The notes under the pieces were generated by a model that searched no databases, was not told the origin of the DNA, and saw nothing but the letters and a program-made list of their open reading frames with translations. The translations under genes were made by a program, and so were the position numbers. Below, piece by piece: positions 24 through 38,013 of a DNA stretch of 41,108 nt (positions within the stretch are counted from its first letter, which is position 1; every line of letters starts with the position of its first letter). The DNA is from Archaeoglobaceae archaeon (GTDB lineage: Archaea; Halobacteriota; Archaeoglobi; Archaeoglobales; Archaeoglobaceae), in NCBI GenBank assembly GCA_015520485.1, contig WAPX01000033.1, forward strand, positions 1-41,108. Reading direction: 5' to 3'.

Positions 24-1442
24 ATGGGTGTCATGAAGATCAGGACGTTTAAGGAGCCACCGGGTGCAAGAGCTGGAGGCGGAACCTATCGACCCGGAGA
101 GCTTAAAGGAATCGTTCAGATAAACCCGAAACACTGTGTCGGCTGCGACACGTGCAGAAGACTCTGTTCAGCAGGTGCGATAGAGGGAGAGTTCGGAGTA
201 ACTCACAGAATAAACCTGGACAAATGCATAATCTGTGGACAGTGTCTGGTCAACTGCCCGTTTGGTGCGATAGAGCAGATGAGTTTCGTGGACGAAGTGA
301 TGCAAAAGCTCAAAGACAAGGACACGCTCGTCGTGGCAATCATTGCCCCGGCAGTTAGAGTGGCCATTGCAGAGGAATTCGGTAAACCTCCGGGAACGCT
401 GACAGTTGGCAGGCTGTACAGGGCGCTGAACAAGGCAGGTTTCGTAATATACGAAAACAACTACGCTGCTGACCAGACAATAATGGAAGAAGCAACTGAG
501 TTGCTCGGAAAAATAGCCTACTGGATTCTCGGTTTAAAGAAGCTGGAAGTGGAGATATGGGGTAACAGGAAACTGAAGCTTGACAACCTCGAGCGCTTCA
601 AAGATGAGCCCTTACCTCAGTTCACGAGCTGCTGCCCGGCATGGGTGAGGTATGCAGAGCTATACTATCCCGCTGTACTTCCACACATCTCGAGCTGCGA
701 CTCCCCAATGCAGATGGCCGGCCCCACCGCCAAAACATACGGTGCTCTGAAAGTCTGGAAGCACGACCCGAGAAAGGTCTACACTGTTGGAATAATGCCG
801 TGCACGGCCAAGATATTTGAAGCTTCTCGTCCGGAGTTCTGTCACGCGTGGAAGTGGCTCAGAGAACACGGTTACATCCCAGAAGACACGCCTAAATTCC
901 CGGATATCGACGCCGTGCTTACTACGAGAGATTTAGCTGAGTTATTCAGAAGACTTGGCATAAACCTGATGGAATTTGAAGAATCTGAAAAGCCAAAAGA
1001 CTTCGAATGGTACAGTGGTGGAGGAACGATTTTTGGTACGAGCGGAGGAGTAATGGAGGCTGCGATGAGATTCGTCTATCACGTTCTGTCCGGTCAAGAC
1101 CCCAGCGCCTGCAGTCCAAAGTGGAACTTCAAGCAGGTCAGAGGATACACTCATCCAGTCGTTAAGGCGACCGTTCCAATACCTCTCAGACCGGAATTCA
1201 GAAAACTGGTCGGCAGTGACGTTTTCGAGTTGAAGGTGTGTGTTGTCAACGGTATCGGTACAGATGGCAGCCACATAAAGCCAATAATCGAGGATGTTGT
1301 GGCTGGTAGAAGCGAATTCCACTTCATAGAAGTAATGACCTGTCCGGGCGGGTGTCTGGACGGTGGTGGTCAGCCCGTCAATCCAATGGGCACTTCTTGG
1401 ATCGATCCCGTTCTGCCTCTACCTTTAAACATACCGCCCTAA
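24..1442 (+). CDS. hydA: [FeFe] hydrogenase catalytic (large) subunit
   Basis: Catalyses reversible H2 oxidation/proton reduction at a di-iron H-cluster. Residues 34-80 form a two-[4Fe-4S] ferredoxin domain (Cys38/41/44/48 and Cys68/71/74/78). The H-domain follows with the three family signatures: L1 TSCCPAW (201-207), L2 MPCTAKIFE (258-266) and L3 EVMTCPGGC then GGGQP (436-451). The four H-cluster cysteines are therefore Cys204, 260, 440 and 444, and the proton-relay Cys203 is also present. At 472 residues it is a compact enzyme with one N-terminal ferredoxin module. It has no signal peptide; the partner encoded just downstream carries a Tat signal, so export as a complex (hitch-hiking) is inferred, as in Desulfovibrio HydAB. 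The ATG is preceded by GGTGGTGGG. The window begins 23 bases upstream, so an earlier operon member cannot be excluded. Confidence 0.96.
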   Translation: MGVMKIRTFKEPPGARAGGGTYRPGELKGIVQINPKHCVGCDTCRRLCSAGAIEGEFGVTHRINLDKCIICGQCLVNCPFGAIEQMSFVDEVMQKLKDKDTLVVAIIAPAVRVAIAEEFGKPPGTLTVGRLYRALNKAGFVIYENNYAADQTIMEEATELLGKIAYWILGLKKLEVEIWGNRKLKLDNLERFKDEPLPQFTSCCPAWVRYAELYYPAVLPHISSCDSPMQMAGPTAKTYGALKVWKHDPRKVYTVGIMPCTAKIFEASRPEFCHAWKWLREHGYIPEDTPKFPDIDAVLTTRDLAELFRRLGINLMEFEESEKPKDFEWYSGGGTIFGTSGGVMEAAMRFVYHVLSGQDPSACSPKWNFKQVRGYTHPVVKATVPIPLRPEFRKLVGSDVFELKVCVVNGIGTDGSHIKPIIEDVVAGRSEFHFIEVMTCPGGCLDGGGQPVNPMGTSWIDPVLPLPLNIPP

Positions 1443-1456
1443 TAGGGGGTGATAAA

Positions 1457-1816
1457 ATGACCAGAATCTATGTTGAGAAACCAGCATCGGCAATAATCTC
1501 GAGGAGAACTTTTCTGAAGATTTTGGGAATCATAATAGCCGTTACTGCTCTGGGAGCTTACAAGTTAACGAACATAGTCCTTCAGAGAAACAAGTATATC
1601 AAGATGAGGCAGAAGGCCCAGTACAGGGACGACATGAGAGTCAGGCAAGAGTTTCATTTGGCTGCATGTTTTCAGAATCCAATGATAAAGAAGTTTTACG
1701 ACGAGTTTGCAGAACACCCGCTAAGCGAAGTTAGCGAAGCACTTCTGCATACCAAGTACGTGCCGAGGGTAAAAGTCTTTCCGGGAGAAATTCCAAAAGA
1801 GGTGTTGCTGAAATGA
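1457..1816 (+). CDS. hydB: [FeFe] hydrogenase small subunit with Tat signal
   Basis: A 119-residue protein matching the iron-hydrogenase small-subunit family. Residues 15-21 read SRRTFLK, a textbook twin-arginine motif, followed by a hydrophobic stretch (about 22-35). The C-terminal half keeps family features: an Arg/Gln-rich segment, FYDEFAEHP, and the LLHTKYVPR signature near residue 97. The start at 1457 was chosen because GGGGGTGAT lies 4 nt upstream; the same frame is open further 5' but only as read-through inside hydA. In bacteria this subunit wraps the H-domain and supplies the export signal for the whole complex. It lies 14 bases after hydA and overlaps the cytochrome gene by 4 bases, so the three are co-translated. 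Whether the signal is cleaved or stays as a membrane anchor is not decidable here. Confidence 0.9.
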   Translation: MTRIYVEKPASAIISRRTFLKILGIIIAVTALGAYKLTNIVLQRNKYIKMRQKAQYRDDMRVRQEFHLAACFQNPMIKKFYDEFAEHPLSEVSEALLHTKYVPRVKVFPGEIPKEVLLK

Positions 1817-2484
1817 AGGAGGATGCCGTTGTTTTAAGGCACCCGGCTTCGAGCAGAATCGTTCACATACTGCACATGATCTGCTGGACAGCCTTAGGGA
1901 TAACAGGATTTGCCGTGCGTTTCAATCTCGTCAATCAGGCTGTCAAAGCGGCATTCATGCACTGGCACATATACTTCGCAATCGTACTTACATTCACAAC
2001 AATAGGATACCTCGTCATAACACCGGACAGAGCATTTATGTTCCTGAAAGAAATTTTACACTGGGACAGAGACACAATAGCGTGGTGGAAAAATCTTGGA
2101 GGATACCCGTACAAGTTTTTCAAAATTGGAAAACCCGGATGTCCTCCGCAGACAAAGTACAACGCCGGACAGAAGCTCTTCGGACTGAGCGTTGTAGCGA
2201 GCCTGCTGATACTTGGTGTTACAGGCTGGAGTCTGTACTTCATTCGACAGGCACTTGGAAAGTACTGGGTGAGGTTGTTCTTTGAGGCGCACGTGTGGGT
2301 TTCGTTGCTTGTGACGCTGTTCATGATAACGTGCCACGTTCCACTGGTAATCTACAACCGGCCCGACTTCGTGGCGATGTTTAGACCGGGTGCTGGAGTC
2401 GTTCCATTAGAGTGGGCGAAGGAGCACAATCCAAAGTGGGTCGAAAGAGAAGTTGTTGAAATAAAGGAATCTGAAAAAATCTGA
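1813..2484 (+). CDS. b-type cytochrome subunit, hydrogenase/formate dehydrogenase gamma type
   Basis: A 223-residue membrane protein with four predicted helices (about 18-36, 53-70, 124-145, 158-178), the arrangement of the FdhI/HyaC cytochrome b561-like family. Candidate haem ligands lie within helices: His21, His50/His52 and the histidines of the AHVWVS...TCHVP segment in the last helix. It starts inside the last codons of the small subunit (ATGA overlap), so it belongs to the hydrogenase transcript. The inferred role is to carry electrons from an exported [FeFe] hydrogenase through two b haems to membrane menaquinone. A T-rich tract follows the stop. It is clearly not a fragment, but the number of haems cannot be proven from sequence. 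Confidence 0.88.
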   Translation: MKEDAVVLRHPASSRIVHILHMICWTALGITGFAVRFNLVNQAVKAAFMHWHIYFAIVLTFTTIGYLVITPDRAFMFLKEILHWDRDTIAWWKNLGGYPYKFFKIGKPGCPPQTKYNAGQKLFGLSVVASLLILGVTGWSLYFIRQALGKYWVRLFFEAHVWVSLLVTLFMITCHVPLVIYNRPDFVAMFRPGAGVVPLEWAKEHNPKWVEREVVEIKESEKI

Positions 2485-2704: not shown

Positions 2705-3739
2705 ATGGAGCTGACGAAACCGGACATTCTGCGTTATCTTTCTGTAGATAATGAGGATGAAATTCTCGAACTTTTCAGAATAGCCGACAGGATAAGAGAA
2801 AAGTTTGTTGGAAATAAAGTTTACCTGAGAGCAATAATCGAATTCTCGAACATCTGCAGAAACGACTGCAGGTACTGCGGAATAAGGAGGAGTGCGAGGA
2901 TCAGAAGGTATGCCATGAAACCCGATGAGATCGTGAGGTGTGCCCAGTACGCTGAAGACCTCGGATACGGTACCGTCGTTCTGCAATCAGGGGAGAATTC
3001 GCTGTACGACGATAAAATTGCTGATATAGTCAGGGCGATTAAAGAAACAACGAATTTAGCGATTGTCCTGTCGATAGGAGAGAAAAGCTACGAGCAGTAC
3101 AGAGAGTACAGACTGGCTGGAGCTGAAAGGTACCTGCTCAAGCACGAAACTTCGAATTCGGAGCTGTTTCACGAATTGACTGGGAGGAGTCTGGACAGAA
3201 GGCTTCAGTGTCTGAGATGGTTGATTGAGCTTGGATATCAGGTTGGATCCGGAAACATCGTTGGTCTGCCGGGCCAGACACTCGAGGATCTTGCAAATGA
3301 CATCGTAATGTTCAGAGAGTGGGACTTCGACATGCTGGGGATAGGTCCTTTTATACCGTGTTACGGCACACCTCTCGAAAACAATCCAGCAGGTGACCCT
3401 GTTCTGACACTCAAGGTTATAGCTCTGTCCAGAATAGCCACAAAAAACGCTCACATTCCCGCTACCACTGCTCTGAGAACGGTTATGGGTGATGATAAAT
3501 CACACGTAATTTTCAGATGTGGTGCAAACGTGGTTATGGGAAACGTAACTCCGCTGGAATACCGCAAACTCTACAGAATTTATCCCGGAAAGGTGTGCAT
3601 ATTCAAAGAGCCGGAGGAGTGGCTGAACGACATAAAGGAGCAGATAAAAGATGCTGGACTGAGGCCGAGTGGAGAAGCCGGACACAGTCTGAAAAAGACG
3701 TGGATTAAAAACTCGATGAAGCTGCTGAGTTTGGGGTGA
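2705..3739 (+). CDS. hydE: HydE, radical-SAM [FeFe]-hydrogenase maturase
   Basis: A radical S-adenosylmethionine enzyme of 344 residues that helps build the di-iron subcluster of [FeFe] hydrogenases. The Cx3Cx2C motif is C51-RND-C55-RY-C58, followed by the HydE-like GIRR and a barrel containing LQSGE, LSIGE, LKHET, GNIVGLPGQT, GIGPFIP and PATTAL. These fit HydE better than BioB or PylB, the closest alternatives, and the gene lies directly behind a HydA operon. It appears to have its own promoter. The other maturases, HydG and HydF, are not in the window; they must be elsewhere if the hydrogenase is active. Length is normal for HydE. Confidence 0.9.
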   Translation: MELTKPDILRYLSVDNEDEILELFRIADRIREKFVGNKVYLRAIIEFSNICRNDCRYCGIRRSARIRRYAMKPDEIVRCAQYAEDLGYGTVVLQSGENSLYDDKIADIVRAIKETTNLAIVLSIGEKSYEQYREYRLAGAERYLLKHETSNSELFHELTGRSLDRRLQCLRWLIELGYQVGSGNIVGLPGQTLEDLANDIVMFREWDFDMLGIGPFIPCYGTPLENNPAGDPVLTLKVIALSRIATKNAHIPATTALRTVMGDDKSHVIFRCGANVVMGNVTPLEYRKLYRIYPGKVCIFKEPEEWLNDIKEQIKDAGLRPSGEAGHSLKKTWIKNSMKLLSLG

Positions 3740-6578: not shown

Positions 6579-6676
6579 CCTCGTATAATCTGATAGCCAG
6601 CAAATTTTAATATGGTCAAGTTCTGGCTTTGGAAAGTTAACGCAGATTATTTTTCTCACCTATTTTAAATCACTGT

Positions 6677-6696
6677 ATTATACCTCGCAGTATAAT
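6677..6696. repeat. 7-bp inverted repeat upstream of the broken ATPase gene
   Basis: ATTATAC (6677-6683) and GTATAAT (6690-6696) form a perfect inverted repeat with a 6-base spacer, followed by a tandem TTCAATG pair (6696-6709). It lies in the AT-rich 239-base gap between the CARF regulator and the ATPase pseudogene and could be an operator. Nothing else is recognisable in that gap. Confidence 0.35.
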
Positions 6697-6817
6697 TCAA
6701 TGTTCAATGTTCCAATTTATCAACTGAATTGAAGTTAGATATGGCGTTTGGATTAAACAAAAAGAATAAATTCAGCTCTACGCAAAATTGACTTGTAAAA
6801 TCCTATGGGATGATAGA

Positions 6818-8216
6818 ATGTTAAAACTCCAGAAAATTGAGATTGAAAATTATGGAAACCTGCAAAAAGTTGATCTAAAAGACCTCAGACGACTAAACAT
6901 CCTGATTGGTCCAAACAACTCAGGAAAGACCCACATTCTAAAAGCTATAGAAGAATTGAATAACTTGCTGCTGCTATTAAACGTGAAAAGAATATATACG
7001 GGAGCATACACGGAGTGGACAAGGAGGAGAAATATCTTAAAAAAGAAGAGAACCGTGTCAAGATCGAATTTCATTTGATAGATTCAGCAAATAATATTTA
7101 CAAATTACTTTTAAAAGAAAAAGAGGATAAAATCCTAAGATTGGACAGACTTGAAGGTGATGAATCCAAAATACAACAGGAGTTAGAAAAAAAGAGGACC
7201 GATCCTGTATTGTCCCGAGGAAAGGCTACAAGGGTATCGTGAAAAGAAAATAGAAGAGTACATTACAGAAAAATTGGAAAATTCAGCTGAAAGCATATTA
7301 GCCGAATTTCTGAATAAAATTGATCCTAGGTTATCTAATATTGTTAAAATAGCGGATGAATATAGGATAGAAAGGGCATACGAAAGAAAAATTGGATGCA
7401 AAATCTCTGAGCAAGGTAGTGGAGTCAGATCAATAATTTGCTTAATGGCCGATATTTTATCATCGCCAGAGAAGGATATAATTTTTAATTGACGAACCGG
7501 AGCTTGGGTTAAATCCCGCGTCAAAACAAGCTCTTCTAGAATAGCTTTTGGAAAAGTCAAAAGAGAAACAGATCTTCATAGCGACTCATGATCCTTCATT
7601 TGTGAATCCTCTTTTGCTGAGCAAGGAAGACGTCTCAATTTATTTCTTTTCGGTGTATAAAGCAAATAGGGGAAAGAAACCATTTGTAAGAATAGACCCA
7701 AACCAAATAGAAGACCCAAACTCATTTGCTGGATTTATGCCTCATACCACAAGCCTTAAAGATATCCACCTTTATGTTGAGGGTGGCTCTGACGTCTATG
7801 TTTTTCAAGGTCTGCTTTACAGTTATCTAAAAAGCAAGGTATCAGCCGACTGGTACAAAATTTGGAATAAAGTGGGAATATATCATTTCCACGGTGATAA
7901 TTGGTCACATCTGCTTTACACTGTAGTGAAAGAACCTTATAAGGCGGTGGTGATATTAGATGGAGATAAAAAGGAAGATGCAAAAGAAAAAGTTAAAGTG
8001 TTTAATGAATATGGGGAAAATAAGATTTTTCCGAGGTTCGAGTTTTGTGAGTCAATTGATAACCTGAGTGAAAAACTAAGGGAAGATAACGTTTGTCCTG
8101 TTTATTGCTTAGAGAAGAAAGACTTAAGAGATTACTTTGAGGAACAATCCAAGGACGAAGTTATCAATGCTGCTTGGAATGGTAGAGTTCCAGATGAACC
8201 TTTACAGATTATTTGA
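6818..8216 (+). pseudogene. Broken AAA ATPase-TOPRIM (OLD/PARIS-like) gene
   Basis: One gene can be followed across several frames. It starts at 6818 (MLKLQKIEIENYGN) with Walker A GPNNSGKTH. The frame changes near 7010-7020, again near 7190-7200 in an A-run, and again near 7485 in a T-run. Then IDEPELGLNP (Walker B and D-loop) is followed by an in-frame TAG at about 7539 and the H-switch ATHDPSF. The last ~220 residues carry TOPRIM landmarks: YVEGGSD and VVILDGDKKED. This is the layout of OLD-family nucleases and of fused AriA-AriB-like (PARIS) anti-phage ATPase/TOPRIM proteins. Two lesions lie in homopolymers, so sequencing error cannot be wholly excluded, but an extra stop and other frameshifted genes nearby favour real decay. 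Confidence 0.75.
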
Positions 8217-8850
8217 AGGCATACTCTCCGGATACATTACATCAGGCGAACAAAAAGAAGAAGAACTCGTATTTTACGATGACTTTGAGGTGTTTAAGGG
8301 ATGGAATCAATATAGGGAAGGTAAAATTGAGCAATCAAGCAATGTAGCATATAAGGGCACACATAGCTTAAAGAAGTATAAATTTGGAGACCCTAATGGA
8401 GGATTTAAAAAACTACCAAAAAAGATTAATCGCAAAGAAGTGGAACGTATAATCTTTTCAGGATGGATATATCGGCCTTCTGAGCAAGTGGGTACAGAGG
8501 GGTATGTAGATAGATTAGCAATAGAAGATGAAAATTTCAACGGTTATGGATTTTTCGCGGGACATAACGGCAAGTTAGCTATTGAGAAAAGAGCTAAAGG
8601 TAACCCAGAAACACTAAAAGAGGTAGAATGGAAACCAATAGAGGAAGAATGGTATCAATTTAAATTTATTATAGGAAATGATAAATTGGACTTGTATATC
8701 TACAATAAAGAAGGAAACGAGGTAGGTAAGACAGAAGGTGTTGTGGGTGATGAATATGACTTATTTGATCGAGTTGTTGTGCACGGTGGATATGTATATT
8801 ACGTAGATTGTATTGAAGTTAAAGTAGTTAAATCACCTCTATCGCAGTGA
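8194..8850 (+). CDS. Jelly-roll (LamG/concanavalin-like) domain protein
   Basis: About 218 residues. After a short N-terminal helix (NLYRLFEGIL) the chain is a beta-sandwich of the LamG/concanavalin A type: FYDDFEVFKGW, SNVAYKGTHSLKK, IIFSGWIYRP, DRLAIEDENFNGYGF, EEWYQFKFIIGNDKLDLYIYN and a final VHGGYVYYVDCIEV. Such domains bind carbohydrates or other ligands. There is no signal peptide or membrane segment, so it looks cytoplasmic. The ATG at 8194 was preferred to an in-frame ATG at 8137 because the extra 19 residues are read inside the upstream TOPRIM gene. It overlaps that pseudogene by 23 bases and may once have been co-transcribed with it. Function unknown. Confidence 0.65.
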   Translation: MNLYRLFEGILSGYITSGEQKEEELVFYDDFEVFKGWNQYREGKIEQSSNVAYKGTHSLKKYKFGDPNGGFKKLPKKINRKEVERIIFSGWIYRPSEQVGTEGYVDRLAIEDENFNGYGFFAGHNGKLAIEKRAKGNPETLKEVEWKPIEEEWYQFKFIIGNDKLDLYIYNKEGNEVGKTEGVVGDEYDLFDRVVVHGGYVYYVDCIEVKVVKSPLSQ

Positions 8851-8897
8851 TGCATGCTACAAAGAAACCGAATGCGTAAACATGCAATACAAGAGGT

Positions 8898-9728
8898 TTA
8901 TCGTTTTCTCATCTCCCTAAACAAACTCGAACGCAGGAAATACAGCAGGATGAAAAAGACGTAGACAGGAGCATAGGCAACTCTCAAACGGTGTGCAACA
9001 ATTATCCCGAATCCAATCAGAATGACAAGTAGGATAGGAAATAGAGTTACCGAATCGGCCTCAAGTTTCAAACCCTTCTGATTCTCGAATTCAAACTCCT
9101 GCAAAAACTCAAGCAACTTTTGATTGCGAAGAGCTTTTCTCTCATCCTTCACTCCAGCGTACAGCCTCTCGATTTTTCCAGCCAAAATCAGCTCTCTCAG
9201 GAAAACTAAAGCCTGCTTCGATGTATTTTCAAAGTTGTCTATCGCCAGTGATATTCTTACATCAGACTGCACGATAGCCTTGAACTTCTCTGCATTAGTC
9301 GTCAATCCCTTTGCATTAATACCAGCGTAAAGCAGTATTGTTTTCAGGATATAGCTTGCTGCCGGATACGTTATGTAAACAAAATTTGCCTGATATGCGA
9401 GCTGCTTGAGCTTCAGCGTTTCCGTTATGCAGAACTTACTTTTGTCTTCGATATCAGATTCAGCCTCAGCTTCAATATTCACGGGAACACATGCTGGATC
9501 AAAAAGCTTCAGGATTTGTTCTCCCCTATTTGTAATCCTTGCCTTTCCCCCCTTCCATTCTATAAACCCCTGTTTCTTTAATTTCTCAAGCCTCCTGTAA
9601 AATGTAGCCCTTGAGAATCCCCAGTCCCTTCGATGAGTAAACATCGATGGGCTTTGCTTCTTCCTTGAAAGCTGTTCTGCTGAGATCCATCCCTCTTTTG
9701 GCAGGCAGCCTATTATTTCCTCTGGCAT
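8898..9728 (-). CDS. Winged-helix protein with C-terminal membrane segment
   Basis: About 276 residues. Residues 1-75 form a winged helix (WISAEQLSRK, FSRATFYRRLEKLKKQGFIEW, ARITNRGEQILKLF). A helical middle region follows (KLKQLAYQANFVYITYP, IDNFENTSKQALVFLREL). The last ~55 residues hold two hydrophobic helices (LFPILLVILIGFGIIV and YVFFILLYFL) and end in a basic tail. This suggests a membrane-tethered DNA-binding regulator. The ATG at 9728 was chosen because AAAGGTG lies 6 nt upstream; three upstream in-frame codons would overlap that site. The gene is intact and ends the minus-strand cluster. No specific family recognised. Confidence 0.7.
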   Translation of the reverse strand: MPEEIIGCLPKEGWISAEQLSRKKQSPSMFTHRRDWGFSRATFYRRLEKLKKQGFIEWKGGKARITNRGEQILKLFDPACVPVNIEAEAESDIEDKSKFCITETLKLKQLAYQANFVYITYPAASYILKTILLYAGINAKGLTTNAEKFKAIVQSDVRISLAIDNFENTSKQALVFLRELILAGKIERLYAGVKDERKALRNQKLLEFLQEFEFENQKGLKLEADSVTLFPILLVILIGFGIIVAHRLRVAYAPVYVFFILLYFLRSSLFREMRKR

Positions 9729-9733
9729 CAGCA

Positions 9734-9897
9734 TCACCTTTGAAGAGAGATAGCGGGATTATTCCTCCTGTTCTTGCGATAAGCCTGTCATGGCATTGCC
9801 TGCACAGATAGAGCCATTTTGAGAAGTCCTCATTTGCATACACGATCAATGGCTTTTCTTCGCTGCTCACACCGCATATCCTGCAGTGTTTTTCCAT
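9734..9897 (-). pseudogene. Small CxxC zinc-finger protein, probably frameshifted
   Basis: The frame starting at 9897 encodes CRICG and then LCRQCH, a four-cysteine zinc finger like those of small HNH-type proteins. In the annotated frame it runs on to 9586, overlapping the next gene by about 140 bases, which is implausible in this compact cluster. If the frame changes near 9785, the sequence becomes AYRKNRRNNPAISLQR and stops at a TGA (9736-9734) that overlaps the ribosome-binding region of the next gene, exactly where an operon stop is expected. I therefore read it as a ~54-residue gene with a one-base indel. No nuclease motif is certain. Confidence 0.5.
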
Positions 9898-10224
9898 GCC
9901 AAGACCTCGTACCTGCCTGGTGTTGCCTTCAGCTCTCTGGCTATCTTTTCCATCTCCTTCTGCTTTTCCTTAATCCAGAGCTTTAGATCATCGATTGCGT
10001 TGTTTGTTCTGAACTTTCTGACTTCCTTATCGTTCCATCTTGCAGATTCAGCGAGGATGCATTTGATTAGCGATGCACTCCTGCCAACCCCGTAGAGAGT
10101 TAGCCTGACGTAGGCTATATCGCCCATTCCAATGACGTTCGATTCGATCTTCGTAGTGAACATCGCTGTTTGGATCTATCTTTGCAAGGAATTCGTTGAT
10201 GTCATGGACAACCTCAACGAGCAT
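9867..10224 (-). pseudogene. Small island gene with a frameshift
   Basis: Starting from an ATG at 10224 with a strong GGAGGTGG upstream, the frame reads MLVEVVHDINEFLAKIDPNSD. It then degenerates, while the adjacent frame takes over near 10160 with FTTKIESNVIGMGDIAYVRL and continues for ~95 residues. That second frame has a stop shortly upstream and no ribosome-binding site of its own. A single indel near 10160-10170 joins the two into a ~119-residue protein with a helical, Lys/Glu-rich second half (DDLKLWIKEKQKEMEKI). The family is not recognised. Its end overlaps the start of the zinc-finger gene by 31 bases. Confidence 0.5.
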
Positions 10225-10555
10225 CGTTCCACCTCCTGTTCCAGGGCTTGCTGTTCAGCTCTGCAATTTCCTCTGCTGTCATGTCTTCGGGACGCTTGAA
10301 ATTCCCGCACGCTTGCCTGTTTGGATCTACGCGTTCGCCAGTAATCCCGCACCAGATTCTGCCAGCTTTGGTGGCTATGAATGCACAGTCAGAACATCTT
10401 GCCTCTGAGGACACGATTGCATCGTGGATCCTGTCGCAAAGAGATTCATACGGGCAGTTTTTGCAGTTGTAGTCGCACCACTCGGAGTGAACTACTATTC
10501 TCCTGATTTCACAGGTTTTCTCGTTGAAGTAAATCGTAAAATTGAGGATTTTCAC
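10214..10555 (-). CDS. Cysteine-rich small protein of unknown function
   Basis: About 113 residues with at least nine cysteines arranged in two clusters: CDYNCKNCPYESLC in the first half and CSDC...WCG...ACGNF in the second. Such spacing suggests zinc or iron-sulfur binding. The GTG at 10555 was chosen because GGAGG lies 8 nt upstream; a GTG at 10564 sits on top of that site. The start overlaps the stop of the upstream kinase gene (GTGA) and the stop overlaps the start of the next gene, so translation is coupled. Cysteine-rich proteins of this size are common in archaeal mobile elements. I do not recognise a family. Confidence 0.6.
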   Translation of the reverse strand: MKILNFTIYFNEKTCEIRRIVVHSEWCDYNCKNCPYESLCDRIHDAIVSSEARCSDCAFIATKAGRIWCGITGERVDPNRQACGNFKRPEDMTAEEIAELNSKPWNRRWNDAR

Positions 10556-11118
10556 TTCATCCACCTCCTTGCAAAGTTTATGTGACTCAAAACGAGATCA
10601 ACACGCCTGTCGACAGGAATGGCAGGAACGTAGAGGGTTCTGTAGGGAACCAATCTTGCGATAACGAATTCCTGGAGTTCTCTGTACGCTATGTCTGCAG
10701 TTCGAAAGCCGTCGTCGACGTCAGCGTTAACTGCCTGGCAGACGAAAAGCAGGTCGTACTTTCTTTCGAGTTCTCTTTTCCTGAATTCTTTAAAATAGCG
10801 ATTAAGTAAGCTGACGTCGTCGTGGTAAAATATCGCAAAGAAGAAGTTGTCGTAGATTGTTCTGTCCGTAAGCACAATGTCATGACTTGCTAACTCTTCG
10901 TCCTCCCTCTTCACCTGTTCCCTGAACACTTCAAGCTGGAACTTCGTTGGAGAGTACATTCTGATCTCTGCAAGGCTTTCAAAGCCGTATCGCTGCTTCC
11001 AATCGTTGAAGATGTCTCTTGCAACCTCTCTTACAACTCCGCAGTTAATTTTCTCAGCAATTGTGTCAACCAGTGTTGTCTTGCCTGAGCCAGAGCTGCC
11101 AGCAAAACCGATCAGCAT
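10552..11118 (-). CDS. P-loop nucleotide kinase/ATPase (AAA_28/NadR-like)
   Basis: A 188-residue P-loop protein. Walker A is GSSGSGKTT (7-15); the segment VREVARDIFNDW and the strand DIVLTDRTIYDNFFF are typical of AAA_28/NadR-like ATPases and viral nucleoside or nucleotide kinases. YDLLFVCQ is a further core strand and RTLYVPAIP precedes a helical C-terminus. Substrate cannot be told from sequence; NMN, nucleosides or polynucleotide ends are all known for relatives. It is intact, starts directly at the end of the broken clamp gene and overlaps the Cys-rich gene by 4 bases. The pairing with a clamp suggests a role in the element's DNA metabolism. Confidence 0.7.
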   Translation of the reverse strand: MLIGFAGSSGSGKTTLVDTIAEKINCGVVREVARDIFNDWKQRYGFESLAEIRMYSPTKFQLEVFREQVKREDEELASHDIVLTDRTIYDNFFFAIFYHDDVSLLNRYFKEFRKRELERKYDLLFVCQAVNADVDDGFRTADIAYRELQEFVIARLVPYRTLYVPAIPVDRRVDLVLSHINFARRWMK

Positions 11119-13259: not shown

Positions 13260-14114
13260 TCAGCCCTGTTTTGATTTTTCTGCTTTTTTCCTCAGCTCTT
13301 CGAGTTTCTTTTCCGCTTCCTTCTTTGCCTTTTTGGCTTTTTCTTCCAGTCTCTTCAGCTCTTCCTTCACGGCTTCGAGGTTCTCCAGAAGGTCGTCAAC
13401 TATCTTTTCGAATATTTCTGCAGAAGGTGAGTCCAAGTCAACGAATGGTTTTCCGTCCTCTCCGCTTTTGAATATGCTCGTATCGAGGGGTATGCTTCCA
13501 GCAAAAGGAACGGCCATTTCAGCGGCGAGTTTCTTGCCTCCCCCAGCTCCAAAGACTTCTATTGGCTTTCCGCAGTGGGGACAGACCATTCCACTCATGT
13601 TCTCAATTAAACCTATCACAGGAATCCCTGCGTGTATTGAGAAGTTTATGGCCTTTCTTACGTCTTCGAGAGCTACGCTTTGAGGTGTTGTGACTATAAC
13701 ACTTCCATCCGGTTTTGCGAGCTGCACCATGCTTATCACTTCATCTCCCGTACCCGGTGGCAGGTCTATTACGAGGTAATCTATTTCACCCCAGTCCACG
13801 TTGTTCAGAGCCTCTTCTATAAACTTGTGCTTTATGGGACCTCTCCAGACGACTGGAGTGTCTCTGCTCGGCAGCATAAATCCCATGGAGAAGACCTTTA
13901 CCCCCTGAACGTCAATTGGTTTTATCTTGCCCTCTTTTGCGTCCAGCCCTCTGACCTCTTCCAAACCGAGAAGCTTTGGTACTGACGGCCCGTGAACATC
14001 GCAATCCAGCAAACCAACCCTGTAACCTTTCTTTTTTAAGGCGAATGCGAGGTTCACAGCAACAGTAGATTTACCGACACCACCTTTTCCGCTCATTACT
14101 ACAAGCTTTTTCAT
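13260..14114 (-). CDS. Mrp/NBP35-type P-loop ATPase, Fe-S cluster carrier
   Basis: A 284-residue SIMIBI-class ATPase that assembles and transfers [4Fe-4S] clusters. The deviant Walker A is MSGKGGVGKST (8-18). Further landmarks are LLDCDVHGPSVPKLLG, FMLPSRDTPVVWRGP and VIDLPPGTGDE. The cluster-binding CPHC lies near residue 178 in NMSGMVCPHCG. After the globular domain there is a Lys/Glu-rich tail of about 45 residues predicted as a coiled coil (KEELKRLEEKAKKAKKEAE). It is probably homodimeric in the cytoplasm. The NifX-like gene follows after a 147-base AT-rich gap with its own likely promoter. Confidence 0.94.
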   Translation of the reverse strand: MKKLVVMSGKGGVGKSTVAVNLAFALKKKGYRVGLLDCDVHGPSVPKLLGLEEVRGLDAKEGKIKPIDVQGVKVFSMGFMLPSRDTPVVWRGPIKHKFIEEALNNVDWGEIDYLVIDLPPGTGDEVISMVQLAKPDGSVIVTTPQSVALEDVRKAINFSIHAGIPVIGLIENMSGMVCPHCGKPIEVFGAGGGKKLAAEMAVPFAGSIPLDTSIFKSGEDGKPFVDLDSPSAEIFEKIVDDLLENLEAVKEELKRLEEKAKKAKKEAEKKLEELRKKAEKSKQG

Positions 14115-14172
14115 GAGGTTTGCTTTTCAGGACTGCTTATGAAAGTTTTGTTGTTTTTGCTTCCACCTAACG

Positions 14173-14209
14173 CGAGATTTTAATACCAGAAAAAATTACT
14201 GCTGGATGG
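14173..14209 (+). promoter_or_regulatory. Promoter of the DRG operon
   Basis: CGAGATTTTAATACC places a TATA box at about 14178-14186, roughly 26 bases upstream of the ATG at 14210. No ribosome-binding site is convincing, so the first gene is probably translated from a nearly leaderless message. Confidence 0.45.
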
Positions 14210-15286
14210 ATGGGCATAGAGGAGCAAATAAAAGCACTTGAAGAGGAGATTAAGAGAACTCCCTACAACAAGGCTACTGAACACCACATAGGAAGGCTGA
14301 AAGCCAAACTCGCAAGACTGAGAGAGGAAGCTGAAAAAAAGCAGAAAAAAGCTGGCCCACAGTTCTCCATTAAAAAAGAGGGTGACGCTACTGCTGTTCT
14401 CGTTGGCTTTCCTTCAGTTGGAAAATCGACTCTCCTCAACGCACTTACCGGTGCGAAAAGTGAGGTTGCCAGTTATTCGTTTACGACTTTAAAGCCTATA
14501 CCGGGAATGCTAGATTATAAAGGCGCAAAAATACAGGTTGTGGATGTGCCGGGTGTTGTAGAGGGGGCAGCGAGGGGCAGAGGGAGAGGTAAAGAAGTAA
14601 TCTCCGCTATAAGGAATGCTGACCTGATAATCGTGGTTTCAGACGTTTTCAGCGCTCACCAGATAGAGATCGTTAAAAAGGAGCTTTACGAGGGTGGAAT
14701 CAGGTTAAACCAGAAACCACCGGAAGTAGTGATAAAAAAGAAGGTAAGAGGAGGTATAAACGTAAACTCCACAGTTCCGCTCTCAATAGACGAGGAAACG
14801 ATAGTGGAGGTTTTGATGGAGTACAGAATACACAACGCAGACGTCATAATCAGAGAAGACCTGACGATAGACAGGTTGATAGACGCAATACAGGGTAACA
14901 GGGTGTACATTCCCGCCATCGAGGTTATAAACAAAATAGATCTGGTTGACAGCAGCTACCTTGAAGAACTCAGGAAAAACTTCAGAGAGGCCGTGTTTGT
15001 CTCAGCAGAAAAGGGTACAGGCCTCGAAGAGCTGAAGGAGAGAATTTACAGCAGGCTCGACTTCATAAGAGTTTTTCTCAAACCACCCGGTAAGAAACCC
15101 GAAAAAGAACCAATGGTGCTGAGAAGAGGTGCAACCGTGAGAGACGTCTGTGAAAGATTGCATAAAGACATGGTCGAGAATTTCAGATACGCTAAGGTGT
15201 GGGGAAAATCGGTTAAATTCGACGGGCAGAGGGTTGGAATAGACCACAGGCTTGAAGATGGAGATGTGCTGACTGTGTATTCGTGA
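14210..15286 (+). CDS. DRG/Rbg-family GTPase
   Basis: A 358-residue translation-associated GTPase of the OBG-HflX superfamily. A Lys/Glu-rich N-terminal hairpin (1-50) precedes the G domain: G1 GFPSVGKSTL, G2 SYSFTTLKPIPG, G3 DVPGVVEGA followed by the DRG-specific RGRGRGKE, and G4 NKIDLV. An S5D2L-like insertion lies between G3 and G4. The C-terminal TGS domain starts near residue 285 and ends GDVLTVYS. Length and order match archaeal DRG proteins, which bind ribosomes and the DFRP partner in eukaryotes. The next three genes follow with gaps of 11-17 bases, so this is the head of an operon. Confidence 0.95.
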   Translation: MGIEEQIKALEEEIKRTPYNKATEHHIGRLKAKLARLREEAEKKQKKAGPQFSIKKEGDATAVLVGFPSVGKSTLLNALTGAKSEVASYSFTTLKPIPGMLDYKGAKIQVVDVPGVVEGAARGRGRGKEVISAIRNADLIIVVSDVFSAHQIEIVKKELYEGGIRLNQKPPEVVIKKKVRGGINVNSTVPLSIDEETIVEVLMEYRIHNADVIIREDLTIDRLIDAIQGNRVYIPAIEVINKIDLVDSSYLEELRKNFREAVFVSAEKGTGLEELKERIYSRLDFIRVFLKPPGKKPEKEPMVLRRGATVRDVCERLHKDMVENFRYAKVWGKSVKFDGQRVGIDHRLEDGDVLTVYS

Positions 15287-15297
15287 AAGGTGGTAAA

Positions 15298-15510
15298 ATG
15301 ATACTCCTGACGTCACCTAAATGCGGAGAGTGCTTGAAGGCGAAGGAACTTCTCAGAAAAGCGGGAGTTGAATTTAGAGAGGTGTCAGTTACGACTGATG
15401 AAGGATTGAAGATTGGAGTTGCTTACAGCGTAACTCACGTTCCAGCCCTGATTGCCGGTAGGGTTTACGTTGGCATCGATGAAATAAAAGAGTTTGTGGA
15501 AAGCCTGTAA
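15298..15510 (+). CDS. Glutaredoxin-like thiol redox protein
   Basis: A 70-residue thioredoxin-fold protein: strand MILLTSP, then active-site C9-GE-C12, helix KAKELLRKAG, strand VEFREVSV, cis-Pro region THVPALIAG and a final helix. The CGEC active site and small size fit archaeal glutaredoxin-like or thioredoxin-like proteins. The start at 15298 has GGTGGT upstream; in-frame upstream codons belong to the end of the GTPase. A ferredoxin gene follows 12 bases later, suggesting a small electron-transfer pair, though partners are not shown by the sequence. Confidence 0.82.
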   Translation: MILLTSPKCGECLKAKELLRKAGVEFREVSVTTDEGLKIGVAYSVTHVPALIAGRVYVGIDEIKEFVESL

Positions 15511-15522
15511 CCGGTGGTGAAA

Positions 15523-15705
15523 ATGAAGGATGGCTACATAGCGGTTATGAACTGCAAGGGCTGCGGAATGTGCAGAGGTGTGTGTGAGAACAACGCCCTG
15601 ATATTCGAAGGAGAAAGAGTTGTAAGAATAGATTACGACAAATGCACACTCTGCATGAAGTGCGTTGAAGCCTGCAAAAATGGAGCCCTGATTTACGTTG
15701 ATTAG
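15523..15705 (+). CDS. 2[4Fe-4S] ferredoxin
   Basis: A 60-residue ferredoxin with two complete Cx2Cx2Cx3C motifs: Cys11/14/17/21 and Cys41/44/47/51. There is no proline after the fourth cysteine of either motif (CEN and CKN instead of CP), a slight departure from clostridial ferredoxins. The ATG at 15523 follows GGTGGTGAAA. It lies in an operon with a glutaredoxin-like protein and a DMT transporter. It probably carries low-potential electrons in the cytoplasm; a specific partner is unknown. Confidence 0.92.
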   Translation: MKDGYIAVMNCKGCGMCRGVCENNALIFEGERVVRIDYDKCTLCMKCVEACKNGALIYVD

Positions 15706-15722
15706 CACCGGTTCAGGATAAA

Positions 15723-16529
15723 ATGCGGATTAAAGACTGCTTTTACGTTGCTGCTGGAGCAGTAATGATGGGTTCTTTACCCGTCTTTGTCAGAAACATC
15801 TGTCTCAATCCTGTTGAGCTGTCCTTTTTCAGGCTGTCTGCTGGCTTTCTGTTCTTATTCCTGTTCATGCTGTTACTCGGAAGAAAGCCGGAGATAAACG
15901 ACTGGAAGCTCATAACTGTGATAACTTTTGTTAACGCGGCAACTATAGTTCTGTACATAGCTTCCATTCAGCTTACAAAGATTGCCACCGCAGCACTCCT
16001 TCTATACATGGCACCTGTTTACGTTGTACCCCTATCAAGGCTTGTGGGAGAAAGAGTTGATGCCAGAAGTTACCTGTCCCTCGCTTTGGGCCTTACAGGT
16101 TTGTGGTTCGTTCTGTCTCCGGACAGGTTTTCAAGAGGGTGCGTCTTCGGACTGTTTTCCGGGATGTGTTATGCTGTGTACTTCCTGCTGATGAAAAAAG
16201 CGAGGCTTGAAATGGACGCACTTGACATAACCTTTGCGTACCTTGCCATGTCTTCTCTCCTGCTGGCTCCATCAATCACTCTTGGACTGCCACATTCAAA
16301 CTGCTGGCTGTGGATTGCCGGTCTCGGATTGATTCCCACGGCTTTGGCTTTTACACTCTTTAACCACGGTATAAAGGGTTGTGGAGCTGGAAAATCCTCG
16401 ATTTCAGCTCTAATTGAGCCTGTTTCCGCTGGCGTTTTTGGATACGTATTTTTCGGGGAAGTTCTGAAACCCCTGCAGGCAGCTGGAGGAGCACTCATAC
16501 TGCTGGCTGTGGCGCTTCTTCTTCTCTGA
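15723..16529 (+). CDS. EamA-family (DMT) transporter
   Basis: A 268-residue membrane protein with ten hydrophobic helices in two homologous halves, the layout of the drug/metabolite transporter superfamily. Landmarks are SFFRLSAGFLFLF in the first half, TAALLLYMAPVYVVPLSRLVGER near the end of that half, and IPTALAFTLFNHGIKGCGAG then SALIEPVSAGVFGYVFFGE in the second. Such proteins export or import amino acids, nucleotide sugars or other metabolites; substrate cannot be assigned. It is the last gene of the DRG operon, 17 bases after the ferredoxin. Confidence 0.88.
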   Translation: MRIKDCFYVAAGAVMMGSLPVFVRNICLNPVELSFFRLSAGFLFLFLFMLLLGRKPEINDWKLITVITFVNAATIVLYIASIQLTKIATAALLLYMAPVYVVPLSRLVGERVDARSYLSLALGLTGLWFVLSPDRFSRGCVFGLFSGMCYAVYFLLMKKARLEMDALDITFAYLAMSSLLLAPSITLGLPHSNCWLWIAGLGLIPTALAFTLFNHGIKGCGAGKSSISALIEPVSAGVFGYVFFGEVLKPLQAAGGALILLAVALLLL

Positions 16530-16541
16530 CCTCTCCCGTTT

Positions 16542-16558
16542 TAACGTTTTAAACGTTA
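16542..16558. repeat. 17-bp perfect palindrome in an intergenic region
   Basis: TAACGTTT-T-AAACGTTA has 8-bp arms around a single base. It lies 13 bases after the transporter stop and about 95 bases before the TATA box of the next gene. It could be an operator or a terminator hairpin. The remainder of the 139-base gap is AT-rich and shows only the promoter noted separately. Confidence 0.45.
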
Positions 16559-16636
16559 CCGAATTCCTAACTGAATTAAATAATTAAATAAAAAAATTAA
16601 ATACATTCGTATTATTTTAAACATTAAAACAGCAAA

Positions 16637-16668
16637 GTTTAATAAACTTACGAAGACTACCTGTTATC
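16637..16668 (+). promoter_or_regulatory. Promoter of the PGF-CTERM gene
   Basis: GTTTAATAAAC at 16637-16647 is a good TATA box about 26 bases before the ATG at 16669, implying a nearly leaderless transcript. Confidence 0.45.
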
Positions 16669-17781
16669 ATGAAAGGAAATAAGATCGGGGTTTGCAAAAT
16701 CCTGCTCGCCATTGCAATCGCAGTGCTCACAGTTACATCAATCAACTCAGCCCTCGCTCTCAGCGCGAGTAACATAGACCTGATTTACTACAACTCCACA
16801 ACTCACAGGCCGGTATACGAGGTGCAGTTTCTCACAGTTCCCCTTGCCTACAATACTACGGGAAGTGGTACAAAGCTGGTAGTTTACGGGGCTGGCACAT
16901 CTTTTAGCATTCAGGTCACGAACTACGAAAGCAATGCAGGTGGAGTTATTGTAAAGCTCGTGAACGTTTACGACGGGACTGAGAGAGTTCTCGGATACCT
17001 CAATTCATCTGTCTCAACAAAGAAGTTCACGATATCCAACCTCTATCCCGGATACTGGAAAATAGTCATCGTCGGTACAGGTAACCTGCCGACGTGGGAT
17101 ATATCGAATGCTTCGGCTCCAACGAACGGTGGACCTCACGAGATCAAGATAGAGGGTAATCCAAAACTCGTGATTGGACTGCTCAACCCAACCAGAAACA
17201 TAGCGCTTGGAGATGTGGCAAAAATACTCGTAAAGGTAGAGGGGTTGTACGGGGAAACGAACGTCAGCGTTGAGGTGATCGGAAAGCACACGCTGAACTT
17301 CTTCAGAACTCTCGGCGGGTCAAACAGTACGTGGATACTGAATGTGCCTACAGACAGGCTCGGTATCGGTGAATACAGAGTTCTTGTCAGAGCTATAGGA
17401 ATAACCGGCAGTTTAACGTTTAACGTGGTTGGAGTTAACGTGACAAACGTTTCCGTTCAGTCAACCAACGCTACAAACGCTACAAACGCTTCGATGGTTT
17501 ACAGACAGAAGATGCACGTAAATGCCACAAACGCTTCTAGCGTCCCCGTCAACGTTTCGGTTAAAAACCGGGTTAAAAAGCTTAACGGAACGGTAAAGGT
17601 GAAAAACAAAAATGCTTTGACAAATAACACTGTAAACAGCACTGTAAACGCAAGTGCAGGCACGAACGTAACCGGCAATAAGACCGGCAACAAAACGGCA
17701 AAAACCAGAACACCGGGATTTGAAGCGGTCATAGCGGTTGCCGCACTGCTGGCGTTAGCAGTTAAGAGGAGAACTCGCTAA
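16669..17781 (+). CDS. PGF-CTERM surface protein
   Basis: A 370-residue secreted protein. An N-terminal signal peptide (about 1-31: basic start, hydrophobic ILLAIAIAVLTV, cut near ALA-LSA) leads into beta-rich domains (about 32-250). A Thr/Asn/Val low-complexity stalk follows (about 255-345) with many N-x-T/S sequons. The C-terminus is PGFEAVIAVAALLALAVKRR: the PGF tripeptide, a membrane helix and basic residues. That is the PGF-CTERM signal cut and lipid-anchored by archaeosortase A. The heavily glycosylated stalk suggests an envelope-anchored protein projecting from or contributing to the S-layer. The beta domain is not recognised. It has its own promoter and terminator. Confidence 0.87.
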   Translation: MKGNKIGVCKILLAIAIAVLTVTSINSALALSASNIDLIYYNSTTHRPVYEVQFLTVPLAYNTTGSGTKLVVYGAGTSFSIQVTNYESNAGGVIVKLVNVYDGTERVLGYLNSSVSTKKFTISNLYPGYWKIVIVGTGNLPTWDISNASAPTNGGPHEIKIEGNPKLVIGLLNPTRNIALGDVAKILVKVEGLYGETNVSVEVIGKHTLNFFRTLGGSNSTWILNVPTDRLGIGEYRVLVRAIGITGSLTFNVVGVNVTNVSVQSTNATNATNASMVYRQKMHVNATNASSVPVNVSVKNRVKKLNGTVKVKNKNALTNNTVNSTVNASAGTNVTGNKTGNKTAKTRTPGFEAVIAVAALLALAVKRRTR

Positions 17782-26396: not shown

Positions 26397-28778
26397 TTAC
26401 AAAATATATATGCCGTTAACTCCTGCACTGTAATCAAATCCTATCTCGTAACTGTATGGATAGCAGCAAATCCAGTATGTTTTCGTTCTTTTATTTTTAT
26501 TTTTTGGAACCTCTACAGGGTAAAAACATCCTAAGCTTTCTTTTAGATCTCTCTGCAAATAATATAACGGTATTTTTGCCATATTTTCGATTTTGAGAGC
26601 ATCATTAGCCTTTTCTCTGTAGATACACTCGGGTATAACGTCAACATGCTGAATTTTTTCATCTCTTACTCTGAATATTCTCCCCGTTTCCTCATCAAAT
26701 GCAATGTCTTTCCACCTGTATCCAAAGATCGTGCATTCTATGAAGATAGACAACAAATTACTTGGTATATCGAATGTGTAATCTGCATAAACCCTGTCAC
26801 AAAACTCTTTAATGTTTCTGTAACTTATTGGCCTTTGGTACTCTCCTGTGAACAATTGCACTTTCCTGAGCAACTCTTCTTCGTAGGGATAACATTTTTC
26901 TGGTAAAAATATTTTTAAAGTATGCTCAATTTTATTTCTCCAGTTTTTACCCTTTCTGTTAAGTCTTCCAGCCCTCTGCCCGAGGGCATCTGGTGGGGCC
27001 AGTTCAGAATACATAATGTCACACGAAATGTCTAACGAAATTTCAATTACCTGAGTTGCAACCAGAATAAAGGGTTTGTTTTTGATTCTACTGTAAATTT
27101 CGTTCTCTTTTCTCACCCTATCGTTGTAAGTAAATTGAGAGTGATAGAGCATTATGTTTAGATCATCTATGTTTTTTAATTCATCTTTCAGCATTAAATA
27201 AAGCTGTTTTGCTCTTTCAACAGTATTTAAAATTACAAACTGTGTTAGCCCTTTTCTGTAGTTTTCTGCGATCTCAGTTATGACATCGTCACTAAATACT
27301 GAACTCTCATATAATTCAAGCTTGAACGGTTTGGATTCAAGACCCTCTTTATCAGTAATGTGTTTGTAGTTGCTATTCAGCTCTTTAAGCATAAAATCTG
27401 GTAAAGTTCCGGACATGAGTAAATGAGGGATGTCCATTTTTGTTAGTAACCTAAACAGTGTCAGCAGGTGCTCCAAGGTTAACTTCTCATAGTAGTGCAC
27501 TTCATCGAAAATAATAACAGCATTTTGTAAATTTCCCAGAGCAAAATCAGCCTGACTGAAACCCTTAACGAATGAGTATAGCAGGTGATCGATTGTCGTA
27601 ATTGTTATCGGTTTGAAAAAGATACTTCCTTTGAAAGTCTCGCCTCTTATTTCATCCAAGTCTTTTTCTTCCTCAAATTCCTCTTCTTTTTCTTTCTTTG
27701 AATCGTCCCTGAGTTTTATGAAGCTTCTTCCGTGATAAAGTCCAACGTTTTTCTCACCAAATATGGCTTTTAGTCTGTCATACATGGCATTGCTTGTTGT
27801 CTGTGTGGGCATTGCGAAAACGATCTTATTTCTTCTGTGTTTTTTCAGTGCATTCAGTGCCCATAGCAACGCTGCCTCAGTTTTACCTCTACCACACGGA
27901 GCAAAGAGTGTTACAAATTTTGGTGCATCAAGTAGATCTTTTTGGAATCTGTATAGATTTTTACCTCCAAGAATCTTTGTAATGGGGTCATTAACTTGCA
28001 GAACTGGAACATATTCGTCTGGATTTTCGAGAACACTGTCGAATAGTTTTTCTTCGCAGTCGTTGTCTTTTACAAATTTCGAGAAGTGGGCACTTGAGTA
28101 GTCATCGCATGTCTGAAGTATTGCAAATAAATAAGTAAATACTGATTTAATCCGTTCCCAGCTTTTACTCTCATTTACAAATCTATTTATTTTTTTAATA
28201 AAATTATTTCTAGCTGTGTCAATTACTTTTGGTCTTGGCCTCGACTCGTGAATTACGATATCAAGTTTATTGAATTCAAAAAACTCATTGAACCCGAGGT
28301 CTGTGTAGACTTTCGTGGCATTGTTCACGAACTTTTTTATCTCATCTACGAGAAAAGTGGGTCTCTCAAACCGATCGTGATCGCAATATATCTGGTCATA
28401 TAGCTGGGTGTGATGACCGAGAATTGCAGCAAGCTCTATTTGAACATCTATAATTGTATCTGTGAAAGACTCGTAAAGCAAAAAGAAGCCGTAGTAGGCA
28501 TGTGGGTACTTTTGAGATCTTTTGTTTTGCCTGATATTTCTCTGAAACTCTTTTGTCAGTTTTCCTATGTCATGGAGGTATACTGTTAAAAAGAGGTTTC
28601 TCAAGAACTTTTCTTGGTTTAACCCCCATCTTTCGCAGAACTGGGTGATTACGCTGTAATTTTGCCGGATGTACGCTTTGAGTATTTTAAGTGCATCTTT
28701 GGTGTGGCCTTCAAGGGTCTGGAAGTATTTTTCTCCGTTTTTAAGTTCAAGTTTGGCTAAAGCTGAAAAACAATTCAA
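26397..28778 (-). CDS. cas3: Cas3 helicase-nuclease (HD + DExH)
   Basis: A 793-residue type I CRISPR effector that unwinds and degrades target DNA recruited by Cascade. The N-terminal HD nuclease has His25, His69-Asp70 (YLHDIGKL) and His122-His123 (LGHHTQ). The helicase has Walker A APCGRGKTE (293-301), DEVH (425-428), SGTLP (456-460), ATQVIEISLDIS and QRAGRLNRKGK (motif VI). All catalytic motifs look intact. The TTG start, one base after the cmr6 stop, is supported by GGGAGG about 10 nt upstream. It is the last gene of the long Cas operon, separated from its type I partners cas5 and cas7 by the whole Cmr module. Confidence 0.95.
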   Translation of the reverse strand: MNCFSALAKLELKNGEKYFQTLEGHTKDALKILKAYIRQNYSVITQFCERWGLNQEKFLRNLFLTVYLHDIGKLTKEFQRNIRQNKRSQKYPHAYYGFFLLYESFTDTIIDVQIELAAILGHHTQLYDQIYCDHDRFERPTFLVDEIKKFVNNATKVYTDLGFNEFFEFNKLDIVIHESRPRPKVIDTARNNFIKKINRFVNESKSWERIKSVFTYLFAILQTCDDYSSAHFSKFVKDNDCEEKLFDSVLENPDEYVPVLQVNDPITKILGGKNLYRFQKDLLDAPKFVTLFAPCGRGKTEAALLWALNALKKHRRNKIVFAMPTQTTSNAMYDRLKAIFGEKNVGLYHGRSFIKLRDDSKKEKEEEFEEEKDLDEIRGETFKGSIFFKPITITTIDHLLYSFVKGFSQADFALGNLQNAVIIFDEVHYYEKLTLEHLLTLFRLLTKMDIPHLLMSGTLPDFMLKELNSNYKHITDKEGLESKPFKLELYESSVFSDDVITEIAENYRKGLTQFVILNTVERAKQLYLMLKDELKNIDDLNIMLYHSQFTYNDRVRKENEIYSRIKNKPFILVATQVIEISLDISCDIMYSELAPPDALGQRAGRLNRKGKNWRNKIEHTLKIFLPEKCYPYEEELLRKVQLFTGEYQRPISYRNIKEFCDRVYADYTFDIPSNLLSIFIECTIFGYRWKDIAFDEETGRIFRVRDEKIQHVDVIPECIYREKANDALKIENMAKIPLYYLQRDLKESLGCFYPVEVPKNKNKRTKTYWICCYPYSYEIGFDYSAGVNGIYIL

Positions 28779-28779
28779 A

Positions 28780-31732: not shown

Positions 31733-32084
31733 GACTATCACCTCCTTCAGCTTCGTTCAACAACACCTCAAAAACAGGCTTAATTCTCGGAATGTCTTTC
31801 TTGACAGTTAGCCACACAACTTCCAAATCAACGCCAAAATAAGCGTGAATCAGCTTATCTCTCATGCCAGCGATAGACTTCCACGGAATTTCCGGATGTC
31901 TTTCCTTTAGCTCATTGGAGATGTTTTTAACTGCCTCACCGATTATCTCCAAAGCCCTTACAACCGCATATTGTGTCCTTACGTCTTCCAAGAAGTCATC
32001 GAAGTCCATACCTTCTACAAACTCCTCAATTCTTTCAATTGCGTTCAATACATCTCTGACGTAATCGGTATCACTTCTCCTCAT
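31725..32084 (-). CDS. hepT: HepT, HEPN ribonuclease toxin
   Basis: A 119-residue HEPN-domain (DUF86) protein. The catalytic R-x4-H-x-Y motif is Arg75-DKLI-His80-A-Tyr82 in [11 protein letters not shown], preceded by the helix [14 protein letters not shown]. HepT toxins cleave RNA; the MntA partner silences them by adding AMP to the motif tyrosine. Here the gene overlaps mntA by 4 bases and cmr4 by 8 bases, so the pair is embedded in the Cmr operon between csx1 and cmr4. Length and motif are intact, so the toxin should be active. Confidence 0.92.
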
Positions 32085-38002: not shown

Positions 38003-38013
38003 TTGAACATCTC

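Follow-up and report, generated by a model that had tools for sequence, protein, structure and literature searches.

We consider it probable that three adjoining genes of an Archaeoglobaceae archaeon encode a membrane-anchored, outward-facing respiratory uptake hydrogenase of the [FeFe] type, which replaces the [NiFe] uptake enzyme of most relatives. The genes are located at the beginning of contig WAPX01000033.1; the whole stretch of DNA analyzed, 41,108 nucleotides, is referred to as the window. All three are encoded on the forward strand: hydA for the large subunit (24-1442, 472 aa), hydB for a small subunit carrying the motif SRRTFLK (1457-1816, 119 aa), and a gene for a four-helix membrane subunit of the cytochrome b561/FdnI type with two predicted hemes (1813-2484, 223 aa). 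A gap of 14 bases separates hydA from hydB, and hydB overlaps the cytochrome b gene by 4 bases. An earlier note, made from the letters of the window alone, had described the trio by its complete H-cluster cysteines, the SRRTFLK motif, the four-helix cytochrome b and the close gene spacing, and proved to be exact in each of these points. To this we add hydE, which adjoins the trio on the same strand (2705-3739) and encodes a radical SAM H-cluster maturase with the motif CRNDCRYC at residue 51. The contig edge lies 23 bases 5' of hydA, where an upstream gene is cut off.

HydA matches PF02906 with 225.9 bits (E 7.8e-67). Against the group A model TIGR02512 it scores 380.9 bits, which is under the curated cut-off of 405.95, and thus it appears somewhat divergent. 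The H-cluster ligands are Cys204 (TSCCP, residues 201-205), Cys260 (MPCTAK), and Cys440 and Cys444 (CPGGC), next to Cys203 as proton-relay residue and two four-cysteine ferredoxin motifs at residues 38/41/44/48 and 68/71/74/78. In an alignment with three congeneric homologues the H-cluster, relay and ferredoxin cysteines are invariant. HydA has no signal peptide of its own. Among solved structures, its best matches are without exception the periplasmic [Fe] hydrogenase of Desulfovibrio (E 1.5e-92), and its identity to the periplasmic HydA of Desulfovibrio desulfuricans is 43%. An AlphaFold model of HydA, built with four sequences, had a mean pLDDT of 46.3 and was too poor for use.

The HydA tree was constructed from 42 sequences under LG+C20+F+G4; for DdHydA, CpI and three further solved sequences, only the HMMER-aligned parts were used, and the set contained one Desulfovibrio HydAB sequence and no bacterial cytochrome-linked enzymes. 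Five archaeal HydA of the exported type, including ours, form one clade (100/100). Its sister is the periplasmic HydA of D. desulfuricans (100/98), and the formate dehydrogenase-linked HydA is found next to that pair (97/91). Hdr-linked archaeal HydA, to which we return below, constitute a separate clade (100/100). The stem between the exported archaeal HydA and the Desulfovibrio HydA is long, with 1.26 changes per column. Despite the sub-cut-off TIGR02512 score, HydA is therefore placed inside the group A set sampled in the tree. This placement and the full set of H-cluster cysteines led us to reject a group B identity. A Narf-like, non-hydrogenase identity is excluded in practice by the retention of all H-cluster cysteines, the tree itself having been computed without a Narf-like outgroup.

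The small subunit scores 54.3 bits against PF02256 (cut-off 24) and matches the small subunit of 1hfe (E 3.3e-4). Its twin-arginine motif occupies residues 15-21 (S15-R16-R17-T18-F19-L20-K21), and the single hydrophobic segment of the protein (residues 19-37) comes after the arginine pair. This pair is invariant in five of five HydB homologues; its surroundings vary, e.g., SRRALLK, KRRTLLK and TRRGLLK in relatives, and the region after the motif shows no strict A-x-A cleavage site. TatC is encoded in two copies in the genome. From these sequence features HydB probably carries the export signal and is a probable membrane anchor, and the hydrogenase complex is probably exported.

For the cytochrome b subunit, the score against PF01292 is 62.6 bits (cut-off 30.1), and four hydrophobic regions are present. 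Its only sequence match in the PDB, 1kqf_C (FdnI of E. coli formate dehydrogenase-N), is weak (E 1.6e-5). When its structural model, with a modest mean pLDDT of 65.6, was used in a Foldseek search, 1kqf_C was again ranked at the top (probability 1.00, TM 0.56-0.57), followed by the cytochrome b of E. coli hydrogenase-1. Four histidines (His18, His52, His160 and His175) are shared without change by four homologues; judged by position, they sit where two heme pairs would be, His18 being the only one column-aligned with its counterpart in FdnI, likewise His18. A stretch of 12 residues after YPYKF, present in four of four relatives, is missing here (window 2112-2131).

The same arrangement recurs within the family. 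Among 59 genomes of the class, hydA of the exported type was identified in three members of the same genus (G041, G042 and G044, 71-72% identity) and in one member of another genus (G036, 79-81% identity). All five carriers, including the present genome, encode hydB and the cytochrome b gene 3' of hydA. Chance is excluded for the Pfam matches (PF02906, PF02256, PF01292), and the gene order is the same in the four further Archaeoglobaceae genomes. The adjacency of hydE is also preserved in G044, in divergent orientation to hydABC, and there the trio, hydE, hydG, hydF and glyA are collected in one cluster. A search of 394 genomes sampled from the phylum yielded no additional hydA of the exported type; in one of them, G375 from another family, HydA is closer to a second, cytoplasmic type. 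Two peculiarities of G036 should be mentioned. Its hydA reveals a single-base deletion and its cytochrome b gene is split between frames (L053:8100-10692); these frameshifts represent either operon decay or sequencing error, and the operon may be dispensable there. The protein encoded just upstream of this hydA is HdrA-like, with an MvhD-like part fused at its C-terminus (L053:10608-12137).

The kinship of the genes does not follow that of the organisms. HydA, the second HydA, HydG and HydF of this genome are 79-87% identical to their counterparts in G036 versus 70-81% to those in the congeners. eRF1, encoded on the window contig, reveals the opposite pattern, sharing 91-98% identity with five congeners and 85% with G036. 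Because of this conflict, a transfer of the hyd genes between genera of Archaeoglobaceae is likely on the sequence evidence. A recent foreign signature was not found by composition, the GC3 of the hyd genes being close to that of eRF1. On a larger scale, a bacterial origin of the exported HydA is likely, and the thinly sampled tree fits it without proving it. A scan of a contig database returned mostly bacterial HydA with extended N-termini, which did not pin down a bacterial donor, and no cytochrome-linked locus of Syntrophomonas or Desulfotomaculum.

The genome (1.57 Mb, 99.96% complete, 0.4% contamination) encodes HydE, HydF and HydG. HydE reaches 317.5 bits against TIGR03956 (cut-off 254.6). 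HydG (480.9 bits) and two HydF (493.4 and 358.2 bits), all above their curated cut-offs, are located on a different contig, C59. The presence of these maturases and the position of HydA as sister to the Desulfovibrio periplasmic enzyme rather than in group B leave standing the earlier proposal of a genuine [FeFe] hydrogenase, for which hydF, hydG and a tree apart from Narf-like proteins had been named as decisive.

Further observations concern the maturation genes on C59. The first HydF (8426-9652), with the motifs CTH and HCGAC, is part of the series hydG-orf100-hydF-glyA (6608-10925). Between hydG and hydF, a protein of 100 aa is encoded (8127-8429), which is conserved in G036, G041, G042 and G044 and has no match among the NCBIfam families. 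The second HydF (15435-16694, in region 14029-16694) has no CxH motif, and its gene overlaps an aspA-like ammonia-lyase gene. Formation of the bridging ligand of the H-cluster has been linked to aspA and serine hydroxymethyltransferase (PMC11736057). In the window itself, a low-GC CRISPR gene cluster of type III-B (Cas3, RAMP proteins, Csx1, Cmr3, Cmr2) extends over 26397-39486.

With respect to respiratory partners, MqnC of menaquinone synthesis (489 bits, above cut-off) and DsrA (621 bits) were found in the genome, and methyl-CoM reductase was not. The organism is most simply read from these genes as a menaquinone-using, sulfite/sulfate-reducing archaeon. Predicted export and menaquinone coupling of the hydrogenase fit this setting, given the two TatC, MqnC and the FdnI-like cytochrome.

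What distinguishes this genome from its relatives is the lack of [NiFe] enzymes. PF00374, the [NiFe] large subunit, has zero matches in this nearly complete genome; it is present in 47 of the 59 class genomes, three congeners having 7-8 matching segments each. HypD, which takes part in [NiFe] hydrogenase maturation, likewise has no match here and is present in G041, G042, G044 and G036. Both are also missing in the congeneric G043 and G040, which are only 68% and 76% complete, respectively. The suggestion that the trio does a job usually done by [NiFe] enzymes is strengthened by this lack of both PF00374 protein and HypD.

The only other hydrogenase found in the genome is again an [FeFe] enzyme of 633 residues (C59:136-2037), which belongs to group A with 451.7 bits, above the cut-off. 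It has a fused small-subunit domain and is encoded in one run on the same strand with MvhD-like, HdrB, HdrC and HdrA genes (C59:136-6117); homologues exist in G036, G041, G042, G043 and G044. By gene context, this enzyme looks as if it replaced MvhAG in an Hdr bifurcating complex. Its motif TSCSP was considered as a sign of a lost ligand and this was rejected, as the solved HydA1 of Acetobacterium woodii has the same motif. The lineage thus appears, as far as gene content tells, to have replaced [NiFe] by [FeFe] enzymes in both respiratory and Hdr-linked roles. Three congeners keep [NiFe] enzymes alongside the exported [FeFe] hydrogenase, so that the latter is not a replacement in these. For the present genome, we lean towards a complete replacement, in which the exported, menaquinone-linked [FeFe] enzyme would have taken the Vht role and the cytoplasmic, HdrABC-MvhD-linked one the Mvh role, following entry into the Archaeoglobaceae and moves between genera.

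From these components we infer export, complex assembly, quinone coupling and the direction of catalysis as follows. HydA and HydB would fold in the cytoplasm, where the H-cluster would be built by HydE, the product of the next gene, and by HydG and HydF from the other contig. The folded complex would then be exported by the Tat pathway via the SRRTFLK motif of HydB, HydA being carried along, and would be held at the outer membrane face by the N-terminal helix of HydB and by cytochrome b. H2 would be split outside, and electrons would leave the H-cluster through two [4Fe-4S] clusters and reach menaquinone by way of two b hemes. The resulting redox loop would feed sulfite/sulfate respiration. 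Compared with the H+/H2 couple, menaquinone is a much stronger oxidant; since a respiratory sink is present as well, H2 uptake is favored over H2 evolution.

The same complex might also work mainly in reverse, with menaquinol driving H2 evolution in syntrophic growth. [FeFe] enzymes are generally known to be reversible. Such a role has been suggested for Syntrophomonas enzymes with an external orientation, and the closest described architecture, HYD-2, comes from a syntrophic H2 producer (PMC3582634). However, H2 formation from menaquinol is a steeply uphill reaction that requires reverse electron transport, and DsrA provides an energetically better sink for the electrons of H2. We regard the reverse mode as unlikely for this organism.

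Export could further be combined with a soluble or extracellular carrier, as in Desulfovibrio, where HydAB passes electrons to cytochrome c3; the cytochrome b would then belong to another complex. It is true that the closest relative of HydA, among solved structures and in the tree, is the soluble periplasmic Desulfovibrio enzyme, but in five of five genomes hydB is overlapped or immediately followed by the cytochrome gene, and HydB has retained a hydrophobic helix behind its twin arginines, which makes this arrangement quite improbable. A complex on the cytoplasmic face, with the RR motif as a mere part of the membrane anchor, would be in agreement with the varying motif surroundings and the lack of a strict A-x-A site. 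We hold it to be very improbable in view of the invariant RR pair, the two TatC copies and the bacterial counterparts, which are predicted to be exported (PMC4148979, PMC3582634). An assembly or binning artefact, i.e., a bacterial or chimeric contig in an archaeal bin, is suggested solely by the contig edge immediately before hydA, and was rejected with a negligible residual probability, as the same 41-kb contig carries an eRF1 that identifies the host as an Archaeoglobaceae archaeon, the trio recurs in four other genomes of the family, and GC and GC3 match those of housekeeping genes.

The outward-facing, menaquinone-coupled uptake hydrogenase preferred here has an architecture that is already known from bacteria; it is the host that is unexpected. 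For HYD-2 of Syntrophomonas wolfei, the description from the genome gives an external orientation and a co-encoded b-type cytochrome as the link to menaquinone; the catalytic subunit, Swol_1925, was detected in a membrane activity band (PMC3582634). Desgi_0926-0928 of Desulfotomaculum gibsoniae was likewise described from the genome as an outward-facing, membrane-bound [FeFe] hydrogenase, with a Tat motif (PMC4148979). Like the HYD-2 type, our locus encodes a catalytic subunit in the same operon as a Tat signal and a b-type cytochrome, a likeness drawn from descriptions rather than sequences. In contrast, both counterparts have bacterial hosts, and the Tat motif of D. gibsoniae resides in the alpha subunit instead of the small subunit. 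With HydAB of D. desulfuricans (1hfe), our enzyme shares separate large and small subunits as well as F clusters and H-cluster, and, with the Desulfovibrio type in general, a PF02256 small subunit, which here bears a twin-arginine signal; the D. desulfuricans enzyme, however, is soluble and has no cytochrome b. The four-helix b-type cytochrome is like FdnI of E. coli, a subunit that belongs to a molybdenum formate dehydrogenase and not to a hydrogenase. The predicted job, passing the electrons of outside H2 through cytochrome b on to a carrier in the membrane, is that of the [NiFe] uptake hydrogenases (Vht/group 1), whose active site and maturation are unrelated and which are absent from this genome. 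Archaeal [FeFe] hydrogenases were reportedly presented by Greening et al. in Cell in 2024.

As late as 2022, it was stated that archaea have no [FeFe] hydrogenases (PMC8924675), and their discovery is credited to that 2024 study (PMC11406978). Among 603 representative archaeal genomes from geothermal settings, a survey reported [FeFe] enzymes of group A in Micrarchaeia and Nanoarchaeia without naming Archaeoglobales; unlike the enzyme proposed here, those are tied to fermentative H2 evolution (PMC11094006). In the literature searched, which did not include Greening et al. itself, we found no description of an [FeFe] hydrogenase in Archaeoglobi, so that priority is uncertain. New in this study is a genome with neither [NiFe] hydrogenase nor HypD, unlike most relatives.

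A respiratory, exported and quinone-linked [FeFe] hydrogenase, as predicted here for the Archaeoglobaceae, a family mostly of [NiFe] carriers, widens the range of this chemistry. Congeners have kept both types, whereas [NiFe] hydrogenase and HypD have left no trace here, so that a single genus provides a natural before-and-after series in which the replacement of one hydrogenase class by another can be followed. Should the host share the thermophily of its relatives, this hydrogenase, along with the organism's own maturases, would also be useful as a source of heat-stable [FeFe] enzyme. If complete replacement holds true, the H2 respiration of this archaeon would depend on [FeFe] enzymes alone.
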